From an uncultured bacterium (GTDB lineage: Bacteria; Dictyoglomota; Dictyoglomia; Dictyoglomales; Dictyoglomaceae): a DNA stretch of 60,555 nucleotides. The notes beneath the pieces were generated by a model. That model saw only the letters and a program-made list of their open reading frames with translations, ran no database searches and was not told the origin of the DNA. Position numbers and translations under genes: made by a program. Numbering within the stretch: position 1 is the first letter of the stretch; each line of letters begins with the position of its first letter. The stretch is from contig CALHLF010000027.1 of assembly GCA_938034905.1 (NCBI GenBank), forward strand, positions 1 through 60,555, written 5' to 3'. Below, piece by piece: positions 18,902 through 29,238 of this stretch.

Positions 18902-19423
18902 ATGGAATTGAAGGATTATATTATTTCTTTAGCTAAAAGGGCTATTGAGACATATTTAAGAGAGAAGAAGGTTATAGAACCTCCAAAAGATGTCCCTCTG
19001 GAATTAAAACGAAGAGGCGGTGCTTTTGTTTCTATTCATACAAAAACAGGTAGGCTTCGGGGTTGTATAGGAACTATACAGCCATTATATGAGAATTTAG
19101 CTCAAGAAATTATACAGAATGCTATAAGTTCTGCTTTTAGAGACCCAAGATTTCCACCTATTAGTTTGGAAGAATTAGATGATTTGGAGTTTTCTGTGGA
19201 TATTCTTTCTCCCTTAGAGGAAGTAAAAAACTTAGAGGAATTAGACCCTAAAAAATTTGGAATAGTAGTGGAAAAAGACTGGAGAAGGGGAGTGCTTTTG
19301 CCTGATCTTGAAGGAGTAGATACCGTTAAGAAACAATTGGAAATTGCATTAGCAAAAGCAGGCATCGATCCTTCGGAAGATTTTAAAATTTACAAGTTTA
19401 CAGTTATTAGATATAAGGAATGA
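18902..19423 (+). CDS. amrA: AMMECR1 domain protein (AmmeMemoRadiSam component A)
   Basis: A 173-residue AMMECR1 family protein, recognised by the conserved [10 protein letters not shown] motif near residue 44 and [10 protein letters not shown]. The biochemical activity of the family is not established. In many prokaryotes it is linked to, or fused with, a MEMO domain and lies beside a radical SAM enzyme; here the radical SAM gene follows with no gap (stop at 19423, next ATG at 19424). No MEMO domain is present in this protein or window. It starts 3 bp after rpsI. Confidence 0.88.
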
Positions 19424-20422
19424 ATGAAAGAAGCTTTATACTATGAAAAATTAGAAGATGAAAAGGTTCAGTGTTTTCTCTGTCCAAATCATTGTTTGAT
19501 AATCTCTGGGAAGAGAGGAGCTTGTGGGGTCAGAGAAAATAAGAATGGTATTTTATATTCCCTCAATTATAATCTTATAAGTTCCATAGCCTTAGATCCT
19601 ATCGAAAAAAAACCGTTATACCACTTTCATCCAGGAAAACTTATTTTATCAGTAGGCACAGTAGGATGTAACTTTAAATGTCCTTTTTGCCAAAATTGGA
19701 GTATTTCTCAAGTTTCTCCCGAAGAATTAAAACTTGAAAAAATTGATAGCTATAAATTAATTTCTCTTGCAAAGTCTTATAAATCCTTTGGGATTGCCTA
19801 TACCTACAATGAGCCCTTTATATGGTATGAATTTGTCTTAGAAACTTCTAAGATTGCTAAAGAAGAAGGATTAGATAATGTTCTTGTAACCAATGGCTAT
19901 ATAGAAGAAAAGCCCTTTTTGGAATTAGCCCCATATATTTCTGCTATGAATATTGATCTAAAAGCTTTTACTCAAGAATTTTATTTAAAATTATGTAAAG
20001 GTAAATTAGATGCAGTATTAAACACTATATATTTAGCCCACAAAAAGAACATTCATGTAGAAATAACTACTCTTATTATTCCTACATGGAATGATGGAGA
20101 AGAAGAAATTGAAAATTTAGTTGACTGGATAGCAAGTATAGATAAAAATATTCCCCTCCACTTCTCTCGATACTTCCCAGCTTACAAGTTTAACTTATCT
20201 CCTACCTCTTTTGACACTTTATTAAAAGCTTATTCTATTGGTAAAAAAAAGTTAAATTATGTTTATTTAGGCAATATATGGGATTTGGAAACTTCTACAA
20301 CCTTTTGTCCTAAATGTAAAAGTCCACTTATTGTTAGGGATGGTTATTCTATTAAAAAAAATCTTTTAGTAAGTAGTAACTTATGTCCCTTTTGTGGTGA
20401 GGAAATTTCTATTATAATATAA
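19424..20422 (+). CDS. amrS: Radical SAM enzyme of the AmmeMemoRadiSam type
   Basis: A 332-residue radical SAM protein. The [4Fe-4S] motif CxxxCxxC appears as CNFKCPFC near residue 79. An N-terminal cysteine segment (CFLCPNHC) and a C-terminal zinc ribbon (CPKC...CPFC, residues 296-325) match the AmrS group, formerly annotated as pyruvate formate-lyase activating-like. YTYNEPFIWYEF and MNIDLKAF are also conserved. The product of the reaction is unknown. Close coupling to the AMMECR1 gene supports the assignment. Confidence 0.88.
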   Translation: MKEALYYEKLEDEKVQCFLCPNHCLIISGKRGACGVRENKNGILYSLNYNLISSIALDPIEKKPLYHFHPGKLILSVGTVGCNFKCPFCQNWSISQVSPEELKLEKIDSYKLISLAKSYKSFGIAYTYNEPFIWYEFVLETSKIAKEEGLDNVLVTNGYIEEKPFLELAPYISAMNIDLKAFTQEFYLKLCKGKLDAVLNTIYLAHKKNIHVEITTLIIPTWNDGEEEIENLVDWIASIDKNIPLHFSRYFPAYKFNLSPTSFDTLLKAYSIGKKKLNYVYLGNIWDLETSTTFCPKCKSPLIVRDGYSIKKNLLVSSNLCPFCGEEISIII

Positions 20423-20429
20423 AGAAATT

Positions 20430-20831
20430 ATGAAAATTCGTAAATTCTTTTATATAATTTTGGGGATATTATTTTTGGGATTTTGGGGTTATAGCTATTA
20501 TCAGTGGTGGTTAGATATTCCATGGAGGGAAAGATGGAAGAAACTTAAAGAAAACCCAGAACTTTTTTATTCGAAAGAGATAGAACTTAAAGGAGAAGTT
20601 ATAAATCCTTATACTATTGTAGGAACAACTATATCAGTATATGTTTTGGAGTTTGAGAACTATAGATATGATGTAGTAAGTTATACAGGAATTCCTGAAG
20701 AGAAATCTAAGATAATTGTTAAGGGTAAAATTAAAAGGGATTTTAAAGTGGAAACTCATTTTGGAAATAGAAAGATTATCAAGACTTTCCCTTGGGTAAT
20801 TATAGAAGAGGAAAGGAGAGAGGCACAATGA
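20430..20831 (+). CDS. Small membrane-anchored protein of unknown function
   Basis: A 133-residue protein that I do not recognise. Residues 6-24 form one hydrophobic helix followed by an aromatic stretch (YYQWWLDIPW), so it is probably anchored with the bulk outside the cytoplasm. The rest alternates short beta-like segments (EIELKGEVI, ISVYVLEF, KIIVKGKI), compatible with a small OB-like barrel; that is inference. It sits 7 bp after the radical SAM gene and overlaps glmM by 4 bp, so it is co-transcribed with both. Confidence 0.75.
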   Translation: MKIRKFFYIILGILFLGFWGYSYYQWWLDIPWRERWKKLKENPELFYSKEIELKGEVINPYTIVGTTISVYVLEFENYRYDVVSYTGIPEEKSKIIVKGKIKRDFKVETHFGNRKIIKTFPWVIIEEERREAQ

Positions 20832-22156
20832 GAAAGTTTTTTGGGACAGACGGAATAAGGGGGAAAGTTAATGAAGATTTAACTCCCGAGTTTACTTTAA
20901 AATTAGGAAAAATATTAGCAAGTTATTTAAAAAATGAAAATGGGAAAATAATTATTGGATATGATACAAGAATATCTAAGGATATGTTAAATTTTGCTTT
21001 ACAATCGGGGATACTTTCTGCAGGAATAGATACTTTGGATGTAGGAATTATTCCTACACCAGGAATTGCCTATCTTGTCAAAAATTTGGATTCTATTTCT
21101 GCAGGTATTATGATTTCAGCATCCCATAATCCTGTAGAGTATAATGGTATTAAAATATTTGGAAAAGATGGTTTTAAACTTCCTGATGACGTCGAAGACG
21201 AGATAGAGAGGTTACTTGAGTCTCCAAGACCTCTTTATTTTGGGGAGAAAATAGGAAAGAGAATTGATTTTTCAGAGGGAAGAGAACTTTATGTAGAATT
21301 TCTTAAGAATATTGTAAATATTGAGTTAGAAGGTTGGAAAATCTTTTTAGATTGTGCTTATGGTTCTGTTTCTGATATTGCCCCTAAGTTATATAGAGAT
21401 TTAGGTGCAGAAGTTATTGCTATAAACTATAATTATGATGGAACAAATATAAATAAGAATTGTGGAGCAGTTTATCCTGAAGTTGGTCTTGATAATTTTA
21501 GGAAATCTGATGCAACAATTGGTTTTACCTTTGATGGAGATGGGGATAGAGTTTTAGCTTTTTCTAAGGATTTTACTATTGTTAATGGAGACAAGATCCT
21601 GGGAATTATTGCATTATATTTAAAGAAAAGAAATAAGCTTAATAAAAATGTAGTAGTTGGAACAATAATGACCAACTGTGGGCTTGAAGAATTTCTTAAA
21701 AAAGAAGATATTTCCCTTATTAGGACTAAAGTTGGGGATAGATATATTTTAGAAGAAATATTGAACAATAAATTAAATCTTGGAGGAGAACCTTCAGGAC
21801 ATATTATTATTTTTGATTATTTACCTACAGGGGATGGCCTCTTAACTTCTCTTTTTCTTTTAAAAGTTTTGAAAGAAGAAAACGTCTCCTTAGAAGAATT
21901 GGCACATTCTATACCCCAGTTTCCACAAATAACTGAAAATTTATCTTTAAACAAAAAATATCCAAAGGAAATCCTAAAAGATCTTGAAGAATATGTTAGG
22001 GAGGTGATAAAGGAAAAAAATATTAGATATATAGTAAGATTCTCAGGGACGGAATCTTCAGTTTTGAGAATTACTTTAGAGGGAGATGTTCCTGAAAGCC
22101 TTTTAGAAGAATATATGAAGGAAATTAAAGAGAAGATAAATTTCCTTCTAAGTTAA
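20828..22156 (+). CDS. glmM: Phosphoglucosamine mutase
   Basis: GlmM converts glucosamine-6-phosphate to glucosamine-1-phosphate for UDP-GlcNAc and cell wall synthesis. From ATG 20828 (AAAGGAGAG upstream; 4-bp overlap with the previous gene) the product is 442 residues. The phosphoserine is Ser99 in ISASHNP, the metal loop is FDGDGDR, and the sugar-binding GGEPSGHI and phosphate-binding RFSGTESS loops are present. The open frame continues upstream to 20792 but that part is not conserved. Its TAA stop abuts the first base of the glmS ribozyme. Confidence 0.95.
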   Translation: MRKFFGTDGIRGKVNEDLTPEFTLKLGKILASYLKNENGKIIIGYDTRISKDMLNFALQSGILSAGIDTLDVGIIPTPGIAYLVKNLDSISAGIMISASHNPVEYNGIKIFGKDGFKLPDDVEDEIERLLESPRPLYFGEKIGKRIDFSEGRELYVEFLKNIVNIELEGWKIFLDCAYGSVSDIAPKLYRDLGAEVIAINYNYDGTNINKNCGAVYPEVGLDNFRKSDATIGFTFDGDGDRVLAFSKDFTIVNGDKILGIIALYLKKRNKLNKNVVVGTIMTNCGLEEFLKKEDISLIRTKVGDRYILEEILNNKLNLGGEPSGHIIIFDYLPTGDGLLTSLFLLKVLKEENVSLEELAHSIPQFPQITENLSLNKKYPKEILKDLEEYVREVIKEKNIRYIVRFSGTESSVLRITLEGDVPESLLEEYMKEIKEKINFLLS

Positions 22157-22300
22157 GCGCCTGAACTTACTCTATATAGAGTAAGTTGACGAGGTGGAGG
22201 TTTATCGAAGTTTTCGGCGGATGCCTCCAGGCAATTGCTACTTGCCTTAAGGAAACTTACAAAACTGGTGGGTGACCGCCAGGACAAAAGGTTTCCAGTA
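22157..22300 (+). ncRNA. glmS ribozyme: glmS self-cleaving ribozyme riboswitch
   Basis: The sequence matches the glmS ribozyme core: GCGCC at 22157-22161, a P1 hairpin (22164-22187, perfectly palindromic), then GTTGACGAGG, GGTTTATCGAAG, TTTTCGGCGGATGCC, and the P4 region with CTGGTGGGTGACCGCCAG. GGAAAC (near 22251) and GTTTCC (22291-22296) can close around P4. In the known mechanism glucosamine-6-phosphate is the coenzyme for cleavage before the first G, here between A22156 and G22157, and the cleaved glmS mRNA is degraded. A22156 is the last base of the glmM stop codon. The downstream limit is approximate. Confidence 0.95.
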
Positions 22301-22358
22301 GCAAGGCAAGTAAGGAAGTCTCCTTCTCATAAAATTTTTACTATGAGGAGGAGAGAAA

Positions 22359-24179
22359 ATGTGCGGTATTATTGGCTATGTTGGAAAAAATCCGTGTGTA
22401 CCTTATATTATAAAGGGATTAAAAATGTTGGAATATAGAGGATACGATTCTGCAGGATTAGCTACTTTGGTGGATGGAGAAATAAAAATTAAAAAGGTCG
22501 TTGGTAAGGTAAATCAGTTGGAAAAAATTGTGGTAAATAATGAGGAGGGTTATATAGGAATTGGACACACTCGGTGGGCGACCCATGGAGAGCCTACCTT
22601 AAACAATGCACATCCCCATATAGATTGTAACGGTCGTTTTGTTGTAGTTCATAACGGTATTATAGAAAACTACAAAGAACTAAAGGACTATCTATTAGGA
22701 AGAGGACACATATTCAGAAGTCAAACAGATACGGAAGTTATAGTACATCTTTTGGAAGAATTTTTTGAAGAAAATATTGTATATTCATTTAAAAGAGTTG
22801 TTGAAAAATTAGAAGGTTCTTTTGCATTAGTAATATTAGATAAAAATAATCCTCAGAGTCTTTATGGAATAAAAAGACAGAGCCCCTTAATAATTGGTTT
22901 AGGAGATGGAGAGGTATTTGTTGCTTCTGATATACCTGCACTTTCTCTTTGGGTTGAAGATTATATTTTCCCAGAAGATGATCAATTGGCTATTCTCAAT
23001 CCCAAAAAATTAGAGATTTATAATCTTAAAGATAAATTGGAAAAGTTAAATATAAAACCTGTTAAAATTTCAAAGGAAAAGATTTCTATTGATAAAGGTG
23101 GTTATCCCCATTACATGCTAAAGGAAATACATGAACAACCTACAATACTAAGGGAGATATTTACTGAAGGGATAGAGAAAAAAGGGAATTTCTTCTTTTT
23201 TAAAGATTTTAAAGAAGATGATAACCTATGGAAAAATATAAACAAAATATCCATAGTTGCTTGTGGAACTTCTTATCATGCGGGATATTTTGCAAAATAC
23301 CTCTGGGAGGAAGAATTACCTTATAATGTAGAAGTTGATTACTCCTCGGAATTTAGATATAGAAAGCCTAAAATAGATAAAAATACTCTTTTTATCGCCA
23401 TAAGTCAATCAGGAGAAACTGCAGATACTATTGCAGCCTTAAGATTAGCAAGAGAGAAAGGAGCTAAAATTCTTTCCTTGACGAATAATCTTAGAAGTAC
23501 TATAGCGAGAGAAAGTGATCTTAACCTATATTTAAGATCAGGAATAGAAATAGGTGTAGCGGCTACAAAGACATTTATGGCAGAATTAGCCTTTATTTTT
23601 CTTCTAAAAGAATATATAAAACAAGAATTATATGGGGAAAACAGTATAAATTGGGATGATTTAAGAAAAATACCTGTTTATTTAGAAAAGATTTTATCTG
23701 AATCTAATTTAATAAAAGAAATAGCTTATAAATATTCAAAAAATAAGAATTTTCTTTATATTGCACGGGGAAAGAATTTTCCATTAATTTTGGAAGGGGC
23801 TTTAAAGTTAAAGGAGATATCCTATATTCATGCTGAAGGTGTTTCTGCGGGAGAAATGAAACATGGTCCTATTGCATTATTGGATGAAAATACTCCTGTA
23901 ATGACAATAGCAGTTCAGGATGAGACTTATAACAAGATTTTCTCAAATTTAGAAGAAGTAAAAGCAAGAAAAGCACCTATCATTGCTATTGCTACTGAGA
24001 ATGATCAAAAAATTATGGATGTTGCTGATGATCTTATATATGTTCCTAAACACAATTCGAAGTATTACTACTTCTTCGTAACAATTCCCTTACAACTTTT
24101 TGCCTATTACGTGGCTGAGAAATTAGAAAGAGAAATTGACCAGCCAAGAAATTTAGCTAAGTCTGTAACGGTAGAATAG
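22359..24179 (+). CDS. glmS: Glutamine--fructose-6-phosphate aminotransferase
   Basis: Makes glucosamine-6-phosphate from fructose-6-phosphate and glutamine, the first step to UDP-GlcNAc. The 606-residue protein starts MCGIIGYVG, giving the catalytic Cys after Met removal; the glutaminase half also shows GHTRWATHGEP. Two SIS domains follow, with SQSGETADT and the ending QPRNLAKSVTVE. GAGGAGGAGAG lies before the ATG at 22359. Expression should be repressed by its product through the upstream ribozyme. Confidence 0.97.
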   Translation: MCGIIGYVGKNPCVPYIIKGLKMLEYRGYDSAGLATLVDGEIKIKKVVGKVNQLEKIVVNNEEGYIGIGHTRWATHGEPTLNNAHPHIDCNGRFVVVHNGIIENYKELKDYLLGRGHIFRSQTDTEVIVHLLEEFFEENIVYSFKRVVEKLEGSFALVILDKNNPQSLYGIKRQSPLIIGLGDGEVFVASDIPALSLWVEDYIFPEDDQLAILNPKKLEIYNLKDKLEKLNIKPVKISKEKISIDKGGYPHYMLKEIHEQPTILREIFTEGIEKKGNFFFFKDFKEDDNLWKNINKISIVACGTSYHAGYFAKYLWEEELPYNVEVDYSSEFRYRKPKIDKNTLFIAISQSGETADTIAALRLAREKGAKILSLTNNLRSTIARESDLNLYLRSGIEIGVAATKTFMAELAFIFLLKEYIKQELYGENSINWDDLRKIPVYLEKILSESNLIKEIAYKYSKNKNFLYIARGKNFPLILEGALKLKEISYIHAEGVSAGEMKHGPIALLDENTPVMTIAVQDETYNKIFSNLEEVKARKAPIIAIATENDQKIMDVADDLIYVPKHNSKYYYFFVTIPLQLFAYYVAEKLEREIDQPRNLAKSVTVE

Positions 24180-28924: not shown

Positions 28925-28999
28925 GGGCGCGTAGCTCAGTGGGAGAGCACTATCTTGACGCGGTAGGGGTCGGTGGTTCAATCCCACCCGCGCCCACCA
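28925..28999 (+). tRNA. tRNA-Val (anticodon GAC)
   Basis: A complete cloverleaf with 7-bp acceptor stem GGGCGCG/CGCGCCC, D arm GTAGCTCAGTGGGAGAGC, anticodon stem CTATC/GGTAG around loop TTGACGC (anticodon GAC, reads GTC and GTT), T arm GGTGGTTCAATCCCACC, discriminator A and encoded CCA. Position 37 is G. It is followed within a few bases by the thrS T-box leader. Confidence 0.95.
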
Positions 29000-29002
29000 T
29001 AT

Positions 29003-29238
29003 AGGAAAGGCAAAGAAGAGGAGAGTACCCTTACAGAGGCTTCCAGAGAGGAAGGGGAGTGGTGAAATCCTTCTAAGCTTCATAAGGGGAAGACCACCTC
29101 AGAGCTTTTTTACTGAAATCTATTATAAAGAGAGTAGGTAAAAACGGGTAATTCCGTTAAAGATTAAAAGTGGGTGAAGATAACCAATTAAGGTGGAACC
29201 ACGGAGCTCCCGTCCTTTAAGGCGGGAGCTTTATTTTT
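29003..29238 (+). promoter_or_regulatory. T-box riboswitch leader of thrS (threonine specific)
   Basis: The leader has the T-box AAGGTGGAACCACGG at 29190-29204 just before a terminator hairpin. In Stem I, GAGG and CTTCC on the 5' side pair with GGAAG and CCTC on the 3' side, leaving ACCA unpaired; ACC at 29093-29095 is a threonine codon followed by the conserved purine. The TGGA of the T-box would pair with the end UCCA of an uncharged tRNA with discriminator U. In the known mechanism uncharged tRNA-Thr stabilises the antiterminator and permits thrS transcription. The 5' limit is approximate. Confidence 0.93.
29205..29238 (+). terminator. T-box controlled intrinsic terminator before thrS
   Basis: AGCTCCCG at 29205-29212 pairs with CGGGAGCT at 29223-29230, extended by CC/GG, and is followed by TTATTTTT. 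Part of its 5' arm overlaps the antiterminator region, giving the switch. Confidence 0.92.

Follow-up and report, generated by a model that had tools for sequence, protein, structure and literature searches.

The glmS ribozyme is a self-cutting RNA switch that employs glucosamine-6-phosphate in its cleavage reaction and controls an enzyme of cell-wall sugar metabolism. In the DNA analyzed here, a stretch of 60,555 nucleotides from an uncultured bacterium of the Dictyoglomaceae (hereafter the window), the glmM gene ends on the very base after which such a ribozyme is predicted to cut. We sought to explain why a gene and a self-cleaving RNA should meet so exactly, and to judge whether the translation of glmM could be coupled to cleavage.

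The glmM stop codon and the ribozyme cleavage site

The glmM gene (phosphoglucosamine mutase, 20828 to 22156 on the + strand; TIGR01455, 457.8 bits against a cut-off of 447.55) ends in AGT TAA, with its stop codon at 22154-22156, and the motif GCGCC starts at 22157, the next base. At its other end, the start codon of glmM and the stop codon of the open reading frame (ORF) before it overlap in the sequence ATGA. This ORF of 133 aa is unnamed and has no NCBIfam match; together with a radical SAM gene of the AmmeMemoRadiSam type (TIGR04337, 332.9 bits) it occupies positions 18902-20831, directly upstream of glmM. Downstream lies glmS (glutamine--fructose-6-phosphate aminotransferase, 22359-24179, + strand; TIGR01135, 750.6 bits), whose leader contains the ribozyme, its ATG being 202 nt after the cut.

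The ribozyme was identified as a full-length match to RF00234 (22145-22306, + strand; model positions 1-167 of 167), scoring 118.9 bits against a gathering score of 37 (E 2.4e-27), with the RNA proper starting from 22156/22157. In the Rfam alignment, the A|G of the model maps to the predicted scissile bond between A22156 (A-1) and G22157 (G1), so that A22156 closes the glmM stop codon and at the same time is position -1 of the ribozyme. The hallmarks of the family are present: next to the A-1|GCGCC cleavage site, C2-C5 form the 5' strand of P2.2 (CGCC, 22158-22161), which is complementary to GGCG at 22216-22219, the 3' strand. Both strands are invariant in the 7 Dictyoglomota genomes that we compared; P2.2 is needed for catalysis, and its pairing controls catalysis (PMC7125110). 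Alignment and folding place a P1 hairpin of 10 bp with the loop AUAU at 22164-22187, and its arms co-vary among the same genomes. The peripheral elements are there as well, namely P4, as read from the Rfam alignment, and the P3/P3.1 pseudoknot known in B. subtilis (PMC11602151), in which the P3 loop UUGCUAC (22235-22241) is complementary to GUAGCAA (22298-22304). From the cut to the glmS ATG, the strand folds far better than shuffled sequences (z -7.4).

A preliminary description of this locus had recognized the ribozyme and placed its cut directly after the glmM stop, and our analysis bears out both. It had also given the spacer between the two genes as zero, which is correct for the distance from glmM to the ribozyme; between glmM and glmS lie 202 nt of ribozyme and hairpin. 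We found no description of a flush junction in the literature on the glmM stop codon and the glmS ribozyme. The ribozyme itself is an ordinary member of a known family; it is the setting that is new, in a variant whose junction is flush and shares a base.

Conservation of the junction within Dictyoglomota

The preliminary description had proposed comparing the zero spacing among relatives. All 7 Dictyoglomota genomes carry a single ribozyme, and in 6 of them (the window, G006, G005, G002, G004 and G001) the glmM stop is in frame and flush with the cut; in G001 the contig breaks just after the junction, and the flush stop was still scored. As a bare trinucleotide, TAA abuts the cut in 7/7, and it is the zero frame of G003 that departs from the pattern. 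The GlmM proteins of the relatives with a flush junction are 56-83% identical to that of the window (56-62% for the divergent genomes). Across the six flush genomes, between one and three residues follow the last conserved Leu as a C-terminal tail. Since the tail varies in length and the stop still falls at the cut, coding sequence has been gained or lost just upstream of the junction. Judged from these sequences, the flush junction is a phylum-wide trait of Dictyoglomota, although seven related genomes of one family are a small sample, in which common ancestry accounts for part of the sharing.

In G003 (L005 1495-1546), TAA|GCGCC is present, but one base out of the glmM frame. The zero frame (..GAT TTT TTA AGA AGA TCT AAG CGC CAG..) ends inside the ribozyme, 34 nt past the cut, at the TGA of the conserved GTTGACGAGG. 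In the zero frame, the glmM of this genome therefore reads through the cut, so that a stop in this frame flush with the cut is no strict requirement. A perfect heptamer, U UUU UUA, lies 11 nt before the cut, and a -1 slip on it would give ..FLKKI followed by the flush TAA, like the tails of the relatives; the predicted GlmM C-terminus is ..DFLKKI with the slip and ..RRSKRQDLPSKGVS with read-through. As this DNA contains about 0.45 copies of TTTTTTA per kb, the heptamer may have arisen as a T run by chance, through a deletion of recent date or through an error in sequencing.

Comparison with Bacillota and with other operon junctions

Outside the phylum, 134 ribozyme loci could be scored, leaving out 16 in which our strict cleavage-site caller failed; glmM was upstream in the locus in 94 of these, 88 of them from Bacillota. 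The Bacillota loci resemble the window in the ribozyme itself (RF00234), in the gene order glmM-ribozyme-glmS (as in B. subtilis cdaA-cdaR-glmM-glmS), in cleavage between A and G (an A occupies position -1 in 126/128 Bacillota ribozymes), and in the availability of RNase J. They differ in the spacer from the glmM stop to the cut, which is at least 5 nt and usually more than 100 nt in the sampled Bacillota (median 191 nt; at most 30 nt in 7 of the 88 junctions, and zero or less in none), whereas in the window it is zero and A-1 lies inside the stop codon. A TAA stands just before the cut in 12 of the 128 Bacillota ribozymes, never as the stop of glmM. When 399 genomes from the same phylum as G013 (Bacillota) were scanned for this purpose, the site was abutted by TAA or TGA in 20 genomes, with glmM supplying the stop in 0/20. 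The ribozyme of a distant genome (G631) had no gene directly upstream within the stretch read. These counts (0/88 and 0/20) reject the idea that glmS ribozymes in general have zero spacing.

In the window, the genes around the ribozyme (..glmM-ribozyme-glmS-acpS..) form a compact Dictyoglomota operon, and 45 of the 51 operon spacers are 20 nt or shorter, including 17 overlaps. As a control for constraint, we considered all other junctions of these operons, with starts called by simple rules. Among the 28 non-overlapping window junctions of 0-20 nt for which G005 and G004 could both be compared, the spacing was identical in all three genomes in only 2, while several overlapping junctions in the control set kept their exact overlap length. 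The glmM-ribozyme junction behaves like an overlap, and on this sequence comparison it looks constrained because so few comparable spacers are identical. With 6/7 Dictyoglomota set against 0/88 and 0/20 in Bacillota, and with other spacers drifting, the flush junction is more than chance.

Predicted transcription across the junction

Another explanation would have glmS transcribed separately, from a promoter within the final part of glmM, in which case cleavage would merely trim a short leader and leave the glmM mRNA untouched. Between the last 350 bases of glmM and glmS, no promoter-like or terminator-like site was found on the + strand, and a sigma-70-type scan of the + strand from 21300 to 22380 returned no sigma-70-like site. 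Dictyoglomota promoters may not fit such a scan, which leaves this explanation some room, but the operon-style packing on both sides also speaks against it, and we regard it as very improbable. A separate promoter or terminator for glmS was dropped from further consideration, there being no + strand candidate. Genes for RNase J and for tmRNA are present in 7/7 Dictyoglomota.

A conserved hairpin at the glmS Shine-Dalgarno sequence

Between the ribozyme and the glmS start, folding predicts a hairpin of 13 bp (22319-22354, + strand; arms 22319-22331 and 22342-22354) that buries the Shine-Dalgarno sequence of glmS. This sequence (AGGAGGAG) is paired in a hairpin of at least 11 bp in 7/7 Dictyoglomota; the two genera differ by an A-U to C-G exchange, and the loops vary. 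Its probability of being unpaired is about 0 in the window, and among the Shine-Dalgarno sequences of 44 window genes none is more occluded. Folding predictions keep the hairpin closed even at 75-80 C, and by this measure an RNA thermometer is unlikely. We also looked for a ligand-dependent antisequestor partner and found none. In the 22290-22319 region, the 3' strand of P4 has a potential alternative to its P4 5' partner in GGAAGU at 22314-22319, just ahead of the anti-Shine-Dalgarno arm, and a similar option exists in 7/7; we dropped it as a candidate switch, as it co-varies by eye but its duplex energies are mostly no better than those of dinucleotide shuffles (p 0.04-0.41), and it would leave the hairpin intact. 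The simplest guess is that the hairpin constitutively damps the translation of glmS.

Such hairpins are not unique to Dictyoglomota: 9 of 116 Bacillota leaders have z < -3, and in 50 of 116 the Shine-Dalgarno sequence is largely paired. Two clostridial glmS leaders (L117 and L142) have a strong Shine-Dalgarno hairpin (GGTCCTTT..AAAGGATT). This suggests that several lineages either evolved hairpins of this kind or retained them. In Dictyoglomota, the conserved hairpin raises a separate question, namely whether translational control has been added to the ribozyme.

Elsewhere in the window (28925-29220), 4 nt separate the end of a tRNA-Val(GAC) gene from a T-box leader that scores 130.5 bits. The two do not form a matching pair: the T-box precedes an ORF resembling thrS (threonyl-tRNA synthetase).

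Explanations for the flush junction

The junction is probably best explained as tight packing around a shared base, in a compact operon with an ordinary glmS feedback ribozyme. The last A of UAA doubles as the almost invariant A-1 of the ribozyme, which would make the junction a one-base overlap and, because gene and ribozyme share that base, would make it flush. Flush would then be the tightest packing that keeps the stop codon upstream of the cut; were the junction one base shorter, every cut would yield a non-stop glmM mRNA. When glucosamine-6-phosphate is plentiful, the transcript is predicted to cut itself at A22156|G22157. The 3' product would carry glmS with a 5'-OH and be expected to be removed by RNase J, a decay step proposed from B. 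subtilis, where glmM and glmS share one operon (PMC6171935) and the 5'-OH cleavage product is degraded by RNase J1 (PMC11780869). The 5' product would keep the whole glmM frame including UAA, and may continue to be used for making GlmM. With RNase J encoded and, on the + strand, no candidate promoter or terminator between the two genes, cleavage should lower glmS and leave the glmM frame whole, so that the cell could go on making the enzyme that consumes glucosamine-6-phosphate while less of this metabolite is synthesized. We infer cleavage in vivo, and likewise that the sharing of a base is what has conserved the junction. Compaction and a shared A explain the layout more simply than coupling does. 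The argument requires just an A, however, which is common in such AT-rich DNA, and it may not fully explain the exact conservation; moreover, the zero-frame ORF of G003 crosses the cut, and a stop upstream of the cut is thus not absolute.

The exactness of the junction could instead reflect descent, a single event in the phylum's ancestor having made the stop flush, after which it stayed unchanged with nothing selected. The compact operons and the sampling of only seven genomes of one family, which share common descent, fit this account, but the junction has remained unchanged while GlmM has diverged to 56-62% identity between the window and the divergent genomes and its tail has changed in length, and 26 of the 28 comparable spacers have changed. 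We consider pure inheritance distinctly unlikely.

The preliminary description had suggested a regulatory role, in which a ribosome terminating on glmM would cover P1 and the cleavage core. Judging from the toeprint distance (PMC3834316), a terminating ribosome extends about 12 nt beyond the codon in its A site. Applied to the glmM stop, this distance gives a predicted covered stretch of 22157-22168 (+ strand), which would include all of the P2.2 5' strand; of P1, only half of the 5' strand would be covered. Because the footprint spans a strand that is essential for catalysis, steric interference is physically expected, on the basis of the sequence layout, while a ribosome sits on the glmM UAA. 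According to this explanation, the terminating ribosome would hold G1 to about U12, P2.2 would be blocked and no cut would occur, and the flush junction would have been selected for this effect; heavy glmM translation would protect glmS, and cut glmM mRNA, with no base after the stop, would undergo slow termination or ribosome rescue. The footprint (PMC3834316) over the catalytically essential P2.2 strand (PMC7125110) argues for it, as do the exact spacing kept in 6/7 genomes where comparable spacers drift, the tmRNA gene in 7/7, and the frame of G003, which runs 34 nt into the ribozyme and would strengthen the interference. Against this, the interference would be about as strong with a few nt of spacer, so that a steric block alone leaves the exact zero unexplained, and exact zero spacing occurs in no other sampled lineage. 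Completing the ribozyme core also requires transcription of about 75 nt of ribozyme, so that a terminating ribosome would be only a transient block; the effect of coupling would depend on termination time relative to cleavage rate. Selection for such coupling seems to us improbable.

Two studied systems are comparable in part. The metE and ppe2 B12 switches of M. tuberculosis (PMC11260477) are alike in that translation in the leader alters the output of the downstream gene, but they combine short uORFs with B12 aptamers and were established by experiment, whereas the window has a self-cleaving RNA directly against a complete enzyme gene, an arrangement known from sequence. Studies of tmRNA and A-site cleavage (PMC3834316) concern ribosomes on mRNA whose 3' end lies at the stop codon, as would be the case for cut glmM; there, the truncation is made by nucleases on stalled ribosomes, while in the window it is predicted from programmed cleavage by the ribozyme.

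Implications

Regulatory coupling is a testable idea to which we assign a low probability. In its fullest form, which we hold to be rather unlikely, ribosomes finishing glmM would gate the Dictyoglomota ribozyme through the shared A, cleavage would leave a stop-ended glmM mRNA, one ribozyme and the traffic on the gene upstream of it would together set both enzymes, which act consecutively in the pathway, and in G003 the ribosome would enter the ribozyme unless it slips by -1. Should packing be all that is at work, the Dictyoglomota junctions, six in-frame and flush and one read-through, would still offer a clean natural series on the proximity of a ribosome to a folding ribozyme. If glmM translation does gate the ribozyme, self-cleavage would be a natural source of a defined stop-ended mRNA, which is usually artificial in studies of termination and rescue, and a single shared nucleotide would let this riboswitch sense ribosome traffic as well as a metabolite.
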